Shown here: positions 8,341 through 37,251 of the stretch, piece by piece | Layout of the letters: each line of letters starts with the position of its first letter | How positions within the stretch are numbered: the stretch's first letter is position 1 | DNA from: Candidatus Levyibacteriota bacterium | GTDB taxonomy: Bacteria; Patescibacteriota; Microgenomatia; Levybacterales; UBA12049 | Assembly (NCBI GenBank): GCA_029260965.1 | Contig: JAJDCG010000002.1 | Location: 188,707-246,801 of the forward strand | DNA length: 58,095 nt | Reading direction: 5' to 3' | Translations under genes and position numbers: made by a program | The notes under the pieces: model-generated | What the model saw: only the letters and a program-made list of their open reading frames with translations | Database searches by the model: none | What the model was told of the DNA's origin: nothing

Positions 8341-9042
8341 ATGACTGAAAGTCAACCAAGAACAGAGCAGGGTGAAAAGGCAAAGCGCGTTTTTTCAGAG
8401 GCTGTTAAAAGTACTGCTGAAAAAGGCAATACAACGCTTGGTATAAGTGGTAATGTGATTTCTGTTGGCGGTTTGGACGTGGGAGTTATTTACAGTGGAG
8501 ATCCACCCTTCTATGGTGTTTTTATTCAAGAAAAGCAAGACGGCTATACTGCTGTTCCGCTTTATGAAATTGGCTTAAGCTATGATCTACCTGATTCAGA
8601 TACACATAAGGTAAGAAAAGAAGTAGAGTTTAATAACAATGGCAGAACTATAAAAGAAATGGTCGATTCTTCTGTTAGCATTTTGAATATGCAAAAGCGC
8701 AAGCCAAGCAGTGGATCCGGAAGAAGAGCGATAGATACAAGAGATTTTTTGGAGCAAGCTTTGAGGAGTATTGAAGAGACTGAGCCAACCCATGAAGACC
8801 CCACAGACCCTGATATTAGTGCTTTATTTGATGAAACACTTTTTGTTGAAAAAGCTGAGAGGCATGCAGATGAAGGAGCTGAAAATATGGCGCTAAGGGA
8901 AGAGCAGGGGGATGCAGGATTTTTTGATATGGAACCAGGTGATGTGATGGAGATTGCAAGAGCTATAAGCATGTCCGTTTCTTCGAACCAAGAGGAAAAA
9001 GAAAAAGCAGAAAAAATTTTTAGAAAAGTTTTGGATATTTAA
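8341..9042 (+). CDS. Hypothetical protein
   Basis: 233 aa ORF directly downstream of a consensus promoter; no family recognised. Confidence 0.75.
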   Translation: MTESQPRTEQGEKAKRVFSEAVKSTAEKGNTTLGISGNVISVGGLDVGVIYSGDPPFYGVFIQEKQDGYTAVPLYEIGLSYDLPDSDTHKVRKEVEFNNNGRTIKEMVDSSVSILNMQKRKPSSGSGRRAIDTRDFLEQALRSIEETEPTHEDPTDPDISALFDETLFVEKAERHADEGAENMALREEQGDAGFFDMEPGDVMEIARAISMSVSSNQEEKEKAEKIFRKVLDI

Positions 9043-27956: not shown

Positions 27957-28226
27957 TTACTTTCTATAAACCTTGTCGTGGTTGCCTATTTTAAAAAATA
28001 TAGCCTCATTTTCTTTAAAAGTATAGATTAGTCGGATATTACCCTCTACAGATATGCTCCTTGTATTTTTTAGGCTTCCTCTTAATTTGTGAGTTCTGAG
28101 TGATGGATGTTTGGTGTTTTTTTGAAAAAGTTTTAATTGTTTTTGGACCTTTTTAAATAATTGTGGTTGTTTTCTTTTAATTTTTTTGAGTTCAGAGGTA
28201 AGTTCTTTTGAAAAAGAAATGTCCAT
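27957..28226 (-). CDS. RelE/ParE-family toxin
   Basis: THKLRGSLKNTRSISVEGNIRLIYTFKENEAIFFKIGNHDKVYRK, typical RelE/YafQ C-terminal pattern. Confidence 0.85.
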   Translation of the reverse strand: MDISFSKELTSELKKIKRKQPQLFKKVQKQLKLFQKNTKHPSLRTHKLRGSLKNTRSISVEGNIRLIYTFKENEAIFFKIGNHDKVYRK

Positions 28227-28229
28227 AGA

Positions 28230-28490
28230 TTAGAGTTTTTCAAAAAAGGCGTCTATATCTTTTACTTTTGTAGTTTTTCCCACATTATGTTCTATAACAG
28301 CTTTGTCATAAGCTTCTTCGGTCTCTGCGGATGCTTGATAAATGGGATAGTCCATGTCTTCTACATCTTTGAGGATTAGGTGCTTGATATATCCCGCAAC
28401 AGGCACGCCAAATTTATCGGCTTTACTGTCCAGAAAACTCTTCAAAGGAAGTGGGATGTTTATTTTAATTTGTGCCTGTTGAGTATTCAT
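28230..28490 (-). CDS. Cognate antitoxin (RHH-type N-terminus)
   Basis: QAQIKINIPLPLKSFLDSKADKFGVPVAGYIKHLIL; 3 nt upstream of the toxin. ATG 28490 (MNTQQ) preferred. Confidence 0.8.
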   Translation of the reverse strand: MNTQQAQIKINIPLPLKSFLDSKADKFGVPVAGYIKHLILKDVEDMDYPIYQASAETEEAYDKAVIEHNVGKTTKVKDIDAFFEKL

Positions 28491-28496
28491 ACACTT

Positions 28497-28533
28497 ATAA
28501 TAGCACCAATTACAGTACTTTTCAAGTACTTTT
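28497..28533 (-). promoter_or_regulatory. Promoter and tandem operator of the toxin-antitoxin operon
   Basis: Minus TTGAAA (rc 28520-28525), 17 bp, TATTAT (rc 28497-28502), 6 nt, ATG. AGTACTTTT at 28514 and 28525, 11 bp apart. Confidence 0.6.
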
Positions 28534-29076
28534 TTATGCATTTAGCACCCAGTTTTTTGATACTTCTGGTACTGAGCAGAGATTGCGGTTAAAGCAGCAG
28601 GGGCGTCTCATTCCTTTGTTCAATTTATCTAGCATTACTTCTATATGTTTTTGTCTGGTTTCAGGTGTCTTGACCGCCCTGATCCAGCGGATCCAGTCCC
28701 ATCTGGCACTTGGAGTGATATCCTCCCACAAGGCTTTTGCTTTTGGAGATACTGATAGAGCCTTTTTTACATCAGTTGGGATAACTGGTTCTATCCATTC
28801 TTTGGTTGGTTCAATTACGATACTTACCATGTCCCCTGCCACGGCATGAGCTTTATCAAGAAGTCTTTTATCAGGCGCAAACCAATGACTTGGCCTCAGC
28901 CCTGGTCCATACCTCCCATCTGGCTCAAGTAGGGTTTTGAAAGGAACGCCGTTTAATTTTCCTGACACCATTGTCATAGCTCTGGTTGGGAGCTGAGCTG
29001 ACGCCTCCTCAGGCAGTCTGAGAATAGTCCAGTCGTTGATCTTAGAAAGCCTGGTTTCAAAGCGAATTTCGGACAT
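28534..29076 (-). CDS. DUF1905/YdeI (OmpD-associated)-like protein
   Basis: VSGKLNGVPFKTLLEPDGRYGPGLRP, VSIVIEPTKEW, TPSARWDWIRWIRAVKTPETRQKHIEVMLDKLNKGMRRPCCFN. Confidence 0.8.
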   Translation of the reverse strand: MSEIRFETRLSKINDWTILRLPEEASAQLPTRAMTMVSGKLNGVPFKTLLEPDGRYGPGLRPSHWFAPDKRLLDKAHAVAGDMVSIVIEPTKEWIEPVIPTDVKKALSVSPKAKALWEDITPSARWDWIRWIRAVKTPETRQKHIEVMLDKLNKGMRRPCCFNRNLCSVPEVSKNWVLNA

Positions 29077-29187
29077 AAAGATAGTATACCAAACTAAGGC
29101 TGAGATGTTAATTTATGTGTAAAGTTAAATTAATTAAACAAAGGGATTAGGTTGACTTTTCAATTTAAATGAATCTATAATTGCAAA

Positions 29188-29706
29188 ATGACAAGGCGCG
29201 AAGTAGACATCAGGTCATCAAAAGAATATTACAGAGATAGATTAGTAGAGAAAGAGTATAAGAGTAAAAAACTCTCTGCTTTAATTGCTCTGTCAATATG
29301 GCCTATTTTTTCAGGTATAAAAATGAGCAAAAATGATAACGATCTAGCTATTTTATGTGTTGGGAAAAAATTTCAAGTTTTTAAAAATGAAAATAGAGTT
29401 AATAGGATGCGTCAGGGAAATTTGGGATTAGTAAGTGAAAGAGGAGAGTTAATAATGGAAGCTGGTGAAATAGCTGCGTCTAGATTTGATACAGAAATAG
29501 TTGAATCTAAAAAAAATTTCTTTAAAGATTATGAAGAAAGGGCGTCCACAATTGAGAATGCAGTTAATGATTTTTTTGTTCAAATGGTGGTAAGAACTGA
29601 CTCGAAAAGTTATAAGATCAAGAAGCTACCAAAGCGTAGTGTGCTTAGGGCATGGAGGAATGAATGGGTTCCTAAGCTTAATAATGTTCAGGACTCCTCA
29701 GGCTAG
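29188..29706 (+). CDS. Hypothetical protein
   Basis: 172 aa; TTGACT-18-TATAAT-6-ATG promoter context. Confidence 0.65.
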   Translation: MTRREVDIRSSKEYYRDRLVEKEYKSKKLSALIALSIWPIFSGIKMSKNDNDLAILCVGKKFQVFKNENRVNRMRQGNLGLVSERGELIMEAGEIAASRFDTEIVESKKNFFKDYEERASTIENAVNDFFVQMVVRTDSKSYKIKKLPKRSVLRAWRNEWVPKLNNVQDSSG

Positions 29707-29904
29707 TGCATATTTTCATCACGAAGAAAACAAATTGTATTGGCCCTGATAGCCACCAAGACTCTTCACGCAATTGGGGTACCCTACCGAATGACGTTAG
29801 GACTCACTTTAGTACATTATCGCAGAAAGACATAGCCTTTTTCAAACACTCCTACGCCGTTCTTTACGCTTAACACCTCTTTCATAGTCACTTTCCTAGA
29901 TAAT

Positions 29905-29923
29905 ATGTAATCATTACACGCCC
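29905..29923 (+). repeat. Inverted repeat, left copy (palindromic core TGTAATCATTACA)
   Basis: ATGTAATCATTACACGCCC; matches the reverse complement of 33614-33632 at 17/19 positions. Confidence 0.8.
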
Positions 29924-30067
29924 TCCTGTTGCGAGGAGGTAGGTAGTGACAGTTGCCAGCCTATCTTAGGGGTATGGGGTGGCAGGGATAAAAAACTGCC
30001 TGGGAGTCCCAATGGTGACCTGGGCGGGAGTGAAGCAGGAGTGTTGCGCAGCTTTAGATATGCCCTT

Positions 30068-33000
30068 TTACTTTATTGACTCAGGGTCGATATCTTTCAT
30101 CCATCGTAACAACGAGTTAATTACTTTGTCTACCTCGCCATCTGCATCATGAGCAGCAGACTCTTGCATCCTGTTTCCTTGGAGTTCTGGAACGCCTTCC
30201 ATCTTCCAATCATCTTTTGAGATTTTGTATGTAGCAAGAAACATAAATTGAAGATTTGTTTTTTCTTCTCTTTCAGAGAAATGGTAAAGCTCTTTTTTTA
30301 TATCAAATCCACCAGTACTACATATACGTTTCCTGTATCTCAGTGAACCAATAACTATCATAAATTTCGATTTTGGTAGGTTTATATTAATTTTATCTTT
30401 TATAGTGGGTGCAGGATACTCTGCATCAAGAAACGTTATGTAACCTTTATCTTTCAGTTTTTTATTCAACTTTGTTACAAAAGAATTTTCTCCAACTGCA
30501 GCATCTGTTCCAGCAGAAGCATGACTAATAAAAATATCAACCGTCTGTTCCGAACCGATTTCGTTCATCCTGTCTCTGACAAGTGGATAAGTCCATACGA
30601 TAGTTTTACCATCAATAAACGCTAACGCATTTGCACTATCAACAACTTTTATAACCAAGTTATGTTTTGCACTCAGTTCAGAAATACGCTTTAACAGCCA
30701 GTTTATTTCTGGTACTTCAAGGTGTTGTTCTGCCCACGATTTCAATACTGTAAGGGCATCAAGAGATAAGAGGAATTCATCTCTTGCAACAAAGTCTATT
30801 ACTACGCTCCATAAGTAGGACGCATACTCTTTATGGTCAGGTTTTTCGACTAAAGTCAAAGAGAAATCCAAGAGGTCGATAAAACGGTCTAGATAGCCTT
30901 CGTCATCCAATTCAACAAGTGGCTTGGCAAATGATTTCGTATCAAGTTCCATCTCCAAGTTTCCAACTGAATGAGCGCCTTCCTGCCTACGGAATGGAGT
31001 TGCTGAAGACTTTAATGTGTCAAACCGCCATGCTATTGCGTTTTCATTGCGAAACACTGAAACTAGAAGTCCATTTGCCAAATCAGAAAGTCTACTTCTC
31101 GCATCGGGTGTCCAAAGTTTTTTGAGAAGCGTTTCGACATCAGCATCTTCTTTTGAAATATATTTCTCTAAATTTTCCAAAGCATATTCACGGTCATGAG
31201 CTGCAATCAGCGTGTCTTCAATAAATGAAATTAATACTTCTTTTGGCGATGACAATCCTGGTGAAACGCTTGCAAGATATATATATGTTTGAGGAATAAG
31301 GTATCGTAAGTCCTTTGTTTTATCGAGCATTATTTCATTCAATGGAGCCAAATCTTCATCAGATATCTCCCCCAGCATTTCTTTGAAATTTTTAAACTCG
31401 GAAAGATAAGAAAAAGGTACGAAGGTGAACAGTTTTTTTCGATTTTCTGGCTGCTGAAGTATGGCTGGGTTGAGTTCATGAATGACTTCAAGCACGGCAG
31501 GGAAATATGAAGCGATAGAGCTGATTGTGTATTCACCAGATTTTGTTTCTGGGTTGTTGTAGTGCATCTCGAGTTTGGCAGGGTCGATTTTTTCTAAATT
31601 ACTTTCCACAGCAAGTTTTAAGAGCCGTTCCTTTTCCGCCGAGGTTGCTTTTGTAAGTAAGAATTTTTTATTTTCAATGAAGTAACGAAAAACTTGAGGG
31701 AAGTATTTATCTTCTCCAGGACTTAGGAATTTCTGAAATTGTTTATAAATTTTATCGTTCTGTTCAGTTTGATAATCTTTTTGTTCCCGTGGTACGTTAG
31801 GGTCTGCAGTTACTCCCAGTTCAATACCTTTCTTGAGTACTGCATCTCCATCTGGATTTCCTGTATGTGGCGCAAGTCTTACCGCTTGGGCAAGTGCATA
31901 TAGTGCATATCCAGCATGGTGGTGCAGTTGGTCTTTAAAAATACCACGGAGTTTCTCAAGCTTTTCAGGCTTTAATAAAACAGAAAGGGTTCCTTCTATG
32001 TCATTAATAAATAAAATCTGTTGCTGCTCTTTGCCGAGGTCTTTTATTGTTTGAATAAATTCATCGAGGTATTCTGGCTCCCCATCTTGAATGATTAGGG
32101 CGGATTGCTGTAAAAACCAAGATTTTCCAGCGTCATAATTCCGTTCGCCTGTAAATGACGAGATAATTATCTTTTTAAGTAAAGAAATTATTTCTGCGTT
32201 TTTATATTTTTTAATGTTTTCGACTAAGGTATCGTCAGCTTGCTTGTCTTCTTTATTGAAAATTGACTCATTATCAAGGAACTCATGAATAAAGTCTGGA
32301 TTTATAGAAAACTGCCGAAGGAAATATTCAATTCCAGCCTGCGTATCTATAGAGTACAGTGCATTTCGTGCATAAATGTGAGCGGTGTCACTGGCAATCG
32401 CTTTAACAAAAACATCAATAGAGGCAGGCTCATTTGCATCTATTGCACGACACATACTTATAAAGGCTTCTCTTACTAAGGAGTCACCGCTATCTGCGTT
32501 CTTTTTTACCTGAAGAATAATATCAACCTCTCCTTTGAAGTTTTCGAGAGCTGCCATAGAGTGGCGATTGAGGACTTCATTTTCGTTAGCCTCGTTTGCG
32601 TAAGAGATAAGTTTCTCTTTCCAAAATTTTCTCTCAGCCTCATTAAGGAGCCTATTATTGTTTTGCAGCATGCCGTCAATTGTTGCGGCAATATTTCCTT
32701 TATGAACATATTCTTTATCATCAGAGTTTGCTTTTAACTCTTTATAAATTGGTTCGTCGATGAACTTATACAAGTTATGGTATACCCACACAGGAAGCCA
32801 AAATTTCTTATTTTGGTATCTGTTGAATACTAGGTAAAACAATTCTTTTTGCAGTGCAGAAGGAATTGCTTGAGGTGTAGTGAATATTAGCGTCTCTGCT
32901 ACTTGGTCAACTAAAGAGTCGTCATTCTTTGAAAGAAATTTTGCAGACCAGGTGGTATAAGTGTTTGCGTCCTGTTCTATCAAAAATCGAAAAACACCTG

Positions 33001-33568
33001 TCCATGAAGGTTTCAAAACGGGTGTTCCTGTTTGTTCAGAAACGACCAGATTTTCCATTTCTTCGATAGGTTTATCCTGGCTCAGAATATGGTCTGAAAC
33101 TAAAAACTCAGTTAAAGTATGATGAGCCCAAGTTACTATTTCGTCATTCTCTTCTGTTTTTCGAGATACAAATCCAATTTCTTCCAGGAATTCGAGAGTT
33201 AAAGTACTAGGTGCATTGATTTTACTCAGTACGTCAGAAAATTCTTTAGCTGGTAGCTGGTTTTTCTCTACTTGCTCAAAATAAAGACCAAGCTTTTGAA
33301 AAACTTCACGCAAGTTTTTATACTGGGGAACTGTTTTGTTAAAAAAGTAATAGTAATAATTAAAGCGAGAAAAGGTGTCGGGTTTAGTATCTTTTAAAAA
33401 TTCCTTGAGGACATTAAAATGCTTTGGATTAGAAATGAAGCTGTTGTACGCATCGTGAAACCAGAACTGCTCTATGACTGCATCGATAAGCTCATTGCTG
33501 TATCCGAGCTCTGATAATTCTTTCCTAATGTCTTCATTTGAGAGTAAATCTGGGTTGTCAAATAACAT
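30068..33568 (-). CDS. NACHT/STAND-like helical-repeat protein with C-terminal TIR-like domain; N-terminal NTPase core absent
   Basis: C-terminal VDIFISHASAGTDAA...LKDKGYITFLDAEYPAPTIKDKININLPKSKFMIVIGSLRYRKR...DIKKELYHF (TIR-like). N-terminal ISNPKHFNVLKEFL...WAHHTLTEFLVSDHIL resembles the region after a NACHT core. Start MLFDNPDLL at 33568 preferred over 33646. Confidence 0.7.
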   Translation of the reverse strand: MLFDNPDLLSNEDIRKELSELGYSNELIDAVIEQFWFHDAYNSFISNPKHFNVLKEFLKDTKPDTFSRFNYYYYFFNKTVPQYKNLREVFQKLGLYFEQVEKNQLPAKEFSDVLSKINAPSTLTLEFLEEIGFVSRKTEENDEIVTWAHHTLTEFLVSDHILSQDKPIEEMENLVVSEQTGTPVLKPSWTGVFRFLIEQDANTYTTWSAKFLSKNDDSLVDQVAETLIFTTPQAIPSALQKELFYLVFNRYQNKKFWLPVWVYHNLYKFIDEPIYKELKANSDDKEYVHKGNIAATIDGMLQNNNRLLNEAERKFWKEKLISYANEANENEVLNRHSMAALENFKGEVDIILQVKKNADSGDSLVREAFISMCRAIDANEPASIDVFVKAIASDTAHIYARNALYSIDTQAGIEYFLRQFSINPDFIHEFLDNESIFNKEDKQADDTLVENIKKYKNAEIISLLKKIIISSFTGERNYDAGKSWFLQQSALIIQDGEPEYLDEFIQTIKDLGKEQQQILFINDIEGTLSVLLKPEKLEKLRGIFKDQLHHHAGYALYALAQAVRLAPHTGNPDGDAVLKKGIELGVTADPNVPREQKDYQTEQNDKIYKQFQKFLSPGEDKYFPQVFRYFIENKKFLLTKATSAEKERLLKLAVESNLEKIDPAKLEMHYNNPETKSGEYTISSIASYFPAVLEVIHELNPAILQQPENRKKLFTFVPFSYLSEFKNFKEMLGEISDEDLAPLNEIMLDKTKDLRYLIPQTYIYLASVSPGLSSPKEVLISFIEDTLIAAHDREYALENLEKYISKEDADVETLLKKLWTPDARSRLSDLANGLLVSVFRNENAIAWRFDTLKSSATPFRRQEGAHSVGNLEMELDTKSFAKPLVELDDEGYLDRFIDLLDFSLTLVEKPDHKEYASYLWSVVIDFVARDEFLLSLDALTVLKSWAEQHLEVPEINWLLKRISELSAKHNLVIKVVDSANALAFIDGKTIVWTYPLVRDRMNEIGSEQTVDIFISHASAGTDAAVGENSFVTKLNKKLKDKGYITFLDAEYPAPTIKDKININLPKSKFMIVIGSLRYRKRICSTGGFDIKKELYHFSEREEKTNLQFMFLATYKISKDDWKMEGVPELQGNRMQESAAHDADGEVDKVINSLLRWMKDIDPESIK

Positions 33569-33613
33569 AGTTTTCTGCGTATATTTTATCAAAATTACGC
33601 CTCGAGCGATATG

Positions 33614-33632
33614 GGGTGTGTAATCATTACAT
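33614..33632 (-). repeat. Inverted repeat, right copy (palindromic core TGTAATCATTACA)
   Basis: GGGTGTGTAATCATTACAT; identical 13-bp palindrome to 29906-29918. Confidence 0.8.
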
Positions 33633-33661
33633 TCACACCTTTTCATTGAGATAATTAGGAT

Positions 33662-33814
33662 ATGGAAGAATTGACCATATCACTTAAACGAGGAAGACCA
33701 ACTAAGTACACCAAGGAAACACCACGACGTGTACTAAATTACATAAAGAGGTGCCAAGAAATTGGTGAATTTCCCACAATAGAGCACTTAGCGTCTGAAT
33801 TAGGGGTGAGTGAC
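33662..33814 (+). pseudogene. Truncated HTH DNA-binding / terminase-small-subunit-like gene fragment
   Basis: KRGRPTKYTKETPRRVLNYIKRCQEIGEFPTIEHLASELGVS, then reads into the antisense of tRNA-His (DGDRTRGIQLHKLALYH). Confidence 0.6.
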
Positions 33815-33877
33815 GGGGATCGAACCCGCGGCATCCAGCTCCACAAGCTAGCGCTCTACCACTGAGCTACACCCACC
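33805..33877 (-). tRNA. tRNA-His(GTG)
   Basis: G-1:C73 extra pair, acceptor GTGGGTG/CACTCAC, loop UUGUGGA. Confidence 0.94.
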
Positions 33878-36429: not shown

Positions 36430-37251
36430 TTAGAAATTTTGTTCTGTAGAGCAAACGAAACGTGCTTCGTCCAAAATTTTCTCTTTATCCTCTCTGGATA
36501 TTGCTAATCTGTCGATAATTGATGAGTCACGGCATATATCCCTACACATAACAATACTATTCTTCAATAATTCGCTTTTGTTTTTTTCAGAGATGGTTGA
36601 TAGCGCAGTTATGGGATGAAGCCCAGATCTGTCAATCATATCTCTGAGTGAATCTCCATCAGGATAATTCCAGCTTATGACTTTCATTCCTACGCATTTG
36701 GCGTAGGTATTTACATCTATAGTTGTCTTGGTATTGGTTACGATCCACGCTTCATCAAATGCATGCTGTTCCTTTATGTCGTCAAATCTCGCCTTGGTAT
36801 ACAGAGCTACGTGTACTTGAGAGCGAGTTCCTGGATTGTTATGAAATTTTGCCTCAACCATACTTTTCTTGCCATCTTTTTCAGCAATTACATCAATTTC
36901 ATGTGATATACACTTTCCCATTATATTTTGTCTAACTTTTGTTTCATATCCCATGTCTTCAAGAATTTTTGCTATAAAGTCTTCAAACGGATAGCCTGTT
37001 GGACCCAGGTCCATAATCGATTGTTTGAGGCTGTATTTAGATTTTGCAAATGGCTCTGGAGATCTATCTAGAAATTCAAGAATATGACGGTATATTTCTT
37101 TTGTTGATATTTGATCTTTAAGTCGTTCTTGTATGTGTATGAGTGCCTCATCCTGAAGAGCTTTTGGTATTCCTGACCTTTTAATAGACGATAGAACTTT
37201 TTCCTGACTAAATGGTTCTGTTTCTCCGTTTGCTTTTACGACTGTAATCAT
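36430..37251 (-). CDS. ATP-cone domain fused to Mrr/PD-(D/E)xK-type nuclease domain
   Basis: N-terminal VVKANGETEPFSQEKVLSSIKRSG (ATP-cone); C-terminal GYETKVRQNIMGKCISHEIDVIAEKDGKKSMVEAKFH (ExD...ExK). Confidence 0.82.
   Translation of the reverse strand: MITVVKANGETEPFSQEKVLSSIKRSGIPKALQDEALIHIQERLKDQISTKEIYRHILEFLDRSPEPFAKSKYSLKQSIMDLGPTGYPFEDFIAKILEDMGYETKVRQNIMGKCISHEIDVIAEKDGKKSMVEAKFHNNPGTRSQVHVALYTKARFDDIKEQHAFDEAWIVTNTKTTIDVNTYAKCVGMKVISWNYPDGDSLRDMIDRSGLHPITALSTISEKNKSELLKNSIVMCRDICRDSSIIDRLAISREDKEKILDEARFVCSTEQNF

Follow-up and report, generated by a model that had tools for sequence, protein, structure and literature searches.

A family of NTPase-less NACHT/STAND derivatives probably serves Patescibacteria as a modular anti-invader sensor, in which a HEAT solenoid controls a TIR NADase. 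The member described here is encoded in a window of 58,095 nucleotides (the whole stretch of DNA that was analyzed) from Candidatus Levyibacteriota bacterium, whose genome is 796 kb in two contigs, 93% complete, with Patescibacteria as its sequence relatives. Bacterial STAND proteins sense invaders and trigger effectors, and TIR domains deplete NAD+. To our knowledge, little is known about the immunity of candidate-phylum bacteria, and no description of an NTPase-deleted family was found among the open-licence papers searched.

Gene and Domain Organization

The gene lies in a single unbroken frame (30068..33646, minus strand), which encodes 1,192 amino acids when counted from the first ATG. 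This upstream in-frame ATG at 33646 is a possible start without conservation. The Met at 33568 is the likely start, because its MLFDNP sequence also begins the proteins of two related loci, L002 and L003, and because in-frame stop codons are found upstream of the shared start in L002 and L004 (the frame of L003 could reach slightly further upstream). The size of about 1,170 amino acids given in the first-pass annotation is thus borne out by an intact frame of 1,166 amino acids. Homologs of the protein were found at 67, 54, and 33% identity and, together with the strongly purifying substitution patterns, point to a signal far beyond chance. Between the window gene and that of locus L008, dN is 0.158 and dS is 1.86; pN/pS is 0.14 for the TIR domain alone in the same comparison, and 0.23 for the N-terminal 75 codons compared with L002. 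Evidently, from these substitution patterns, the gene is under purifying selection including its TIR and N-terminus, and a decaying copy is unlikely because such values are not those of decay.

Table 1. Features in and around the island that harbors the NTPase-less sensor gene (positions in the window).
Feature	Coordinates	Strand	Evidence or remark
4.7-kb island	29094..33803		From the OmdA gene to the tRNA-His 3′ end
172-aa ORF, no assigned function	29188-29706	+	On the island; Pfam, PADLOC, and PHROGs gave no convincing match
NTPase-free HEAT-sensor/TIR protein	30068..33568	-	1,166 aa; start Met MLFDNP
TIR domain	30068..30556	-	Residues ~1004-1166; putative catalytic Glu in FDIKKELYHF; profiles, PADLOC PDC-S66
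HEAT-type alpha-solenoid, putative sensor	30614..33101	-	Residues ~156-985 (~830 residues); HEAT_2 in homologs, AF2, Foldseek
Post-NACHT helical segment and winged-helix-like region	33102..33568	-	Residues ~1-155; alignment with NACHT-containing homologs, motifs, AF2
Terminase-small-subunit-like fragment	33662-33814	+	Pfam GP3_package, E 0.1; runs into the tRNA-His 3′ end
tRNA-His (GTG)	33803..33876	-	3′ end is the island boundary

The domains of the protein are listed in Table 1. Its N-terminal region carries the motifs FWFHD (residues 35–39) and WAHHTLTEFL (residues 147–156), and aligns to the segment right after the NACHT core of three full-length relatives, L031, L033, and L046. The alignment is continuous from just past the core through the helical/winged-helix region and then the repeat sensor, so the earlier reading of the N-terminus as the lid/winged-helix region that follows a NACHT core is supported by distant homologs that have the NACHT domain exactly there. 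In an AF2 model of moderate confidence (pLDDT 65), helices and a beta-hairpin (residues 134–147) precede a continuous alpha-solenoid, and no alpha/beta NTPase core is seen. In agreement with the missing Walker A and B motifs noticed before, a motif search found no P-loop in any of the nine NTPase-less proteins of the family, and Pfam gave no NACHT match in them. The helical-repeat middle can now be specified as a HEAT solenoid: HEAT_2 is detected by Pfam in homologs, and Foldseek of the AF2 model retrieved importin-, CAND1-, and PP2A-B56-type HEAT solenoids; their TM-scores are low overall, which is expected because the repeats are flexible. An N-terminal effector domain is missing, and the effector sits on the 3′ side.

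Relatives With and Without the NACHT Domain

An intact NTPase-free architecture, which the first-pass annotation had regarded as a sign of a new system, is conserved at nine loci in eight genomes (the window, L002, L003, L004, and L026–L030), all with a common start just past the NTPase core. Two of them, L027 and L028, are paralogs within a single genome, and each of these NTPase-less sensors has its own effector gene and restriction-modification (RM) neighbor. The motif FW[FR]xD at about residue 27–46 is present in all nine proteins and in none of five NACHT-type relatives.

More distant homologs with NACHT were found twice in Patescibacteria and once on an Arcobacter plasmid. The L007/L031 protein (1,360 aa) has Walker A GEPGVGKT and Walker B VLILDALDEV, followed by a nuclease-like tail recognized by eye; the NACHT domain of L033 passes the Pfam cut-off (E 8.6e-8); and the plasmid protein, L046 (1,348 aa), has AEPGYGKT. 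Because these more distant homologs have an intact NACHT domain, the family descends from a NACHT/STAND protein whose NTPase was lost at the domain boundary. Homologs with and without an upstream NACHT, both foreseen in the first-pass annotation, do exist, but pseudogene remains of NACHT, which it had also considered, do not accompany the NTPase-less genes: tblastn with three NACHT domains matched NACHT-bearing loci only. In a tree, a weakly supported branch (36/48) sets the nine NTPase-less members apart, which leaves room for one or more losses of the NTPase. As a separate observation, an HNH endonuclease gene lies directly upstream of the NACHT protein gene of L033 (3-1973, minus strand) in the same orientation and may be an effector located on the opposite side in this NACHT-containing relative.

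A sensor lacking its NTPase could be one half of a split STAND system whose oligomerization is driven in trans by the NTPase of another NACHT/AAA protein encoded elsewhere in the genome, and the retained winged-helix stub could offer a docking site for that protein. However, tblastn detected no NACHT-like neighbor in any locus, and adjacent genes apart from the 3′ effector have no conservation across the loci, which makes this arrangement unlikely.

Strong matches occur in ~12 of ~1,070 Patescibacteria genomes, a patchy distribution. Weak first-pass matches in G084, G286, and G675 (E 1e-4) were dropped since they fall in unrelated proteins. No homolog was found in the phage collection, and none of the window protein on plasmids, while the L031 query did match NACHT-containing plasmid homologs.

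TIR Domain

The first-pass annotation had noticed a TIR-like C-terminus with a candidate catalytic Glu, and profile comparison bears this out. The window TIR scores 20.5 bits against Pfam TIR_2 (E 7e-4), under the cut-off of 28, whereas this cut-off is passed by the TIR of L008, 82% identical to it, with 30.4 bits and by the separate TIR at L003 with 44.1 bits. Furthermore, a profile made from four family TIRs matches solved bacterial TIR enzymes with E ~1e-13, including AbTIR, an NAD+ hydrolase. The Glu of KKELYHF is invariant in all four and aligns with the Glu in the YELDG stretch of AbTIR. The PADLOC candidate model PDC-S66 also matches the window TIR (E 7e-7). The domain is therefore predicted to destroy NAD+, with this Glu as the putative catalytic residue. 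AF2 was uninformative on the TIR part, left unresolved at pLDDT ~20–50, because no homolog used in the modeling covered it.

Exchangeable Effectors and Neighboring Genes

The 3′ module differs from locus to locus. TIR is fused to the sensor in the window and L008 and is encoded by a separate gene at L003 and L032. L004 and L026 have a fused helical tail with RxxxxH. At L029 and L030, the effector is a separate protein with a single hydrophobic segment, a candidate membrane effector, and at L027 and L028 it is a separate protein with no assigned fold; in L031, the module is tentatively the nuclease-like tail. Wherever sensor and effector are encoded by two genes (six loci), the effector gene overlaps the sensor gene by 4–8 bp or starts 4 bp after it. 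Judging from these arrangements, the 3′ module is modular: the sensor is kept and the effector is exchanged. The sensor–TIR architecture proposed earlier is thereby refined, in that TIR is present but is only one among the exchangeable effectors that occur at the C-terminus or next to the sensor. Two closer assignments were tried and given up. A HEPN identity of the L004/L026 tail is unconfirmed, as the tail, when folded from a single sequence, gives a helical bundle (pLDDT 76) for which Foldseek returned no significant match, and a TOPRIM-like reading of the L028 effector was by eye only, with no support from Pfam and PDB.

RM genes adjoin three of the nine NTPase-less loci: a methylase gene is directly upstream at L026 (59 bp) and L027 (67 bp), and Dcm and Vsr genes adjoin L028. 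PrrC, an anticodon nuclease, is known to guard a type I RM enzyme. By analogy, the sensor might monitor an RM enzyme and fire upon its inhibition, and the RxxxxH in the tail of L004 and L026 would suit such a guard as well as the RM neighbors do. But no RM gene was found next to the window gene, L003, L004, L029, or L030, the HEPN fold of the tail is, as noted, without confirmation, and the association may simply reflect defense islands, so that guarding of an RM enzyme has only an outside chance of being the function.

Genomic Island at the tRNA-His Gene

The window gene is located on an island that ends at the 3′ end of a tRNA-His gene (Table 1). In the sister species (genome G001, locus L079), the one other species of the genus compared, the flanking neighbors are syntenic and the OmdA and tRNA-His genes are only ~154 bp apart. 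The terminase-small-subunit-like fragment next to the tRNA is possibly a remnant of an integrated phage element, to judge from its weak Pfam match. No direct repeats of at least 10 bp flanking the island were found. Horizontal transfer is suggested because L008, from a genome of another class, is nevertheless 75% identical over 410 aa.

Some further observations were made around the island. In L079, part of the tRNA-His 3′ end (GGGTGAGTGA) is repeated at ~8489-8500 near the intact tRNA, as would be expected had an element once integrated there and later left. At 27957-28541 (minus strand) of the window, a YafQ/RelE-type toxin gene with a small antitoxin-like gene upstream is absent from the syntenic place in L079, where its flanks 27953/28543 are ~80 bp apart. 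A protein with an ATP-cone and an Mrr-type nuclease is encoded at 36430-37251 (minus strand), 3 kb from the TIR gene; it is regarded as lying outside the island because it is also present in the sister species.

TIR NADases occur outside defense as well as in it. The window protein might accordingly be a constitutive toxin or an NAD+ regulator, for example in an episymbiotic lifestyle, which has been inferred for most Patescibacteria (PMC13059738). Against such a role stand effector swapping, patchy distribution, the island at the tRNA gene, and RM neighbors, the usual marks of defense loci, which are read here as signs of an anti-invader role; a function outside defense is hence quite improbable. 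The 5′-truncated relic that the first-pass annotation gave as its alternative, a NACHT–TIR gene that lost its 5′ part through integration at tRNA-His and is now decaying, is extremely improbable and can be taken as largely refuted: the gene does start within 240 bp of the tRNA at the island edge, a broken phage-like ORF does lie alongside, and NACHT is present in distant homologs, but the nine loci begin identically despite unrelated upstream sequences, the NTPase-less members share the derived FW[FR]xD motif, frames are intact across ~1,000 codons with purifying selection even on the N-terminal 75, and there is no NACHT-like sequence upstream.

Possible Mode of Action

For the preferred reading as an anti-invader sensor, an anti-phage role and the activation of the window system are predicted from context and domain logic. 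The HEAT solenoid would serve as both sensor and brake for the 3′ effector, here TIR. It may bind a phage or invader product, or may respond when a host component that it guards is lost, an RM enzyme being one possibility. Binding of the trigger would change the conformation of the solenoid, by which TIR would be released or clustered, and the freed TIR would hydrolyze NAD+ and stop the growth of the infected cell. A nucleotide-driven oligomerization step would not be needed, and the mechanism would be closer to SARM1 than to a canonical NLR.

For the broader proposal, the chances seem about even: the family may represent a new class of Patescibacteria immune sensors, NLR-derived HEAT scaffolds that work without a nucleotide switch, by direct allostery, and with exchangeable effectors, either C-terminal or adjacent (TIR, helical RNase-like, membrane, and others). 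If so, a sensor scaffold could signal without an NTPase, although NLR/STAND proteins are seen as nucleotide switches, and a modular defense family would be added to candidate-phylum bacteria.

Comparison with Known Systems

With bNACHT, STAND, and Avs proteins, the family shares a homologous post-NACHT region and a helical-repeat sensor, and L031, L033, and L046 carry NACHT ahead of the same scaffold. STAND proteins are composed of an N-terminal effector, a central NACHT, and a C-terminal sensor (PMC12169576). The earlier remark that STAND effectors are usually N-terminal agrees with this layout but does not extend to the window family, which has no NTPase core and places its effector at the C-terminus or in the following gene. 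In iSTAND of the vWA–MoxR ternary systems, a STAND-derived conflict protein is likewise without NTPase activity; iSTAND keeps an inactive NTPase fold and acts with vWA and MoxR genes (PMC7159879). In the present family, in contrast, the NTPase domain is gone, and no MoxR or vWA gene was recognized by eye in the translated neighbors of the loci, few of which were scanned with profiles.

PDC-S66 matches the TIR domains of both the window protein and L003, the latter being matched by ThsB models as well, but these matches are confined to the TIR part and do not include the HEAT scaffold. The other likeness is to SARM1, an ARM-SAM-TIR NADase in which the solenoid restrains TIR (PMC8494770). No sequence homology between the solenoids was detected, Pfam gave no SAM match in the window protein at E up to 1, and the family also carries non-TIR effectors on the same scaffold. 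The arrangement itself, an alpha-solenoid followed by a C-terminal TIR with no NTPase, is found in the window protein as in SARM1, and, if the proposed mechanism is true, the family would link NLR-type and SARM1-type control of TIR in a small testable system.
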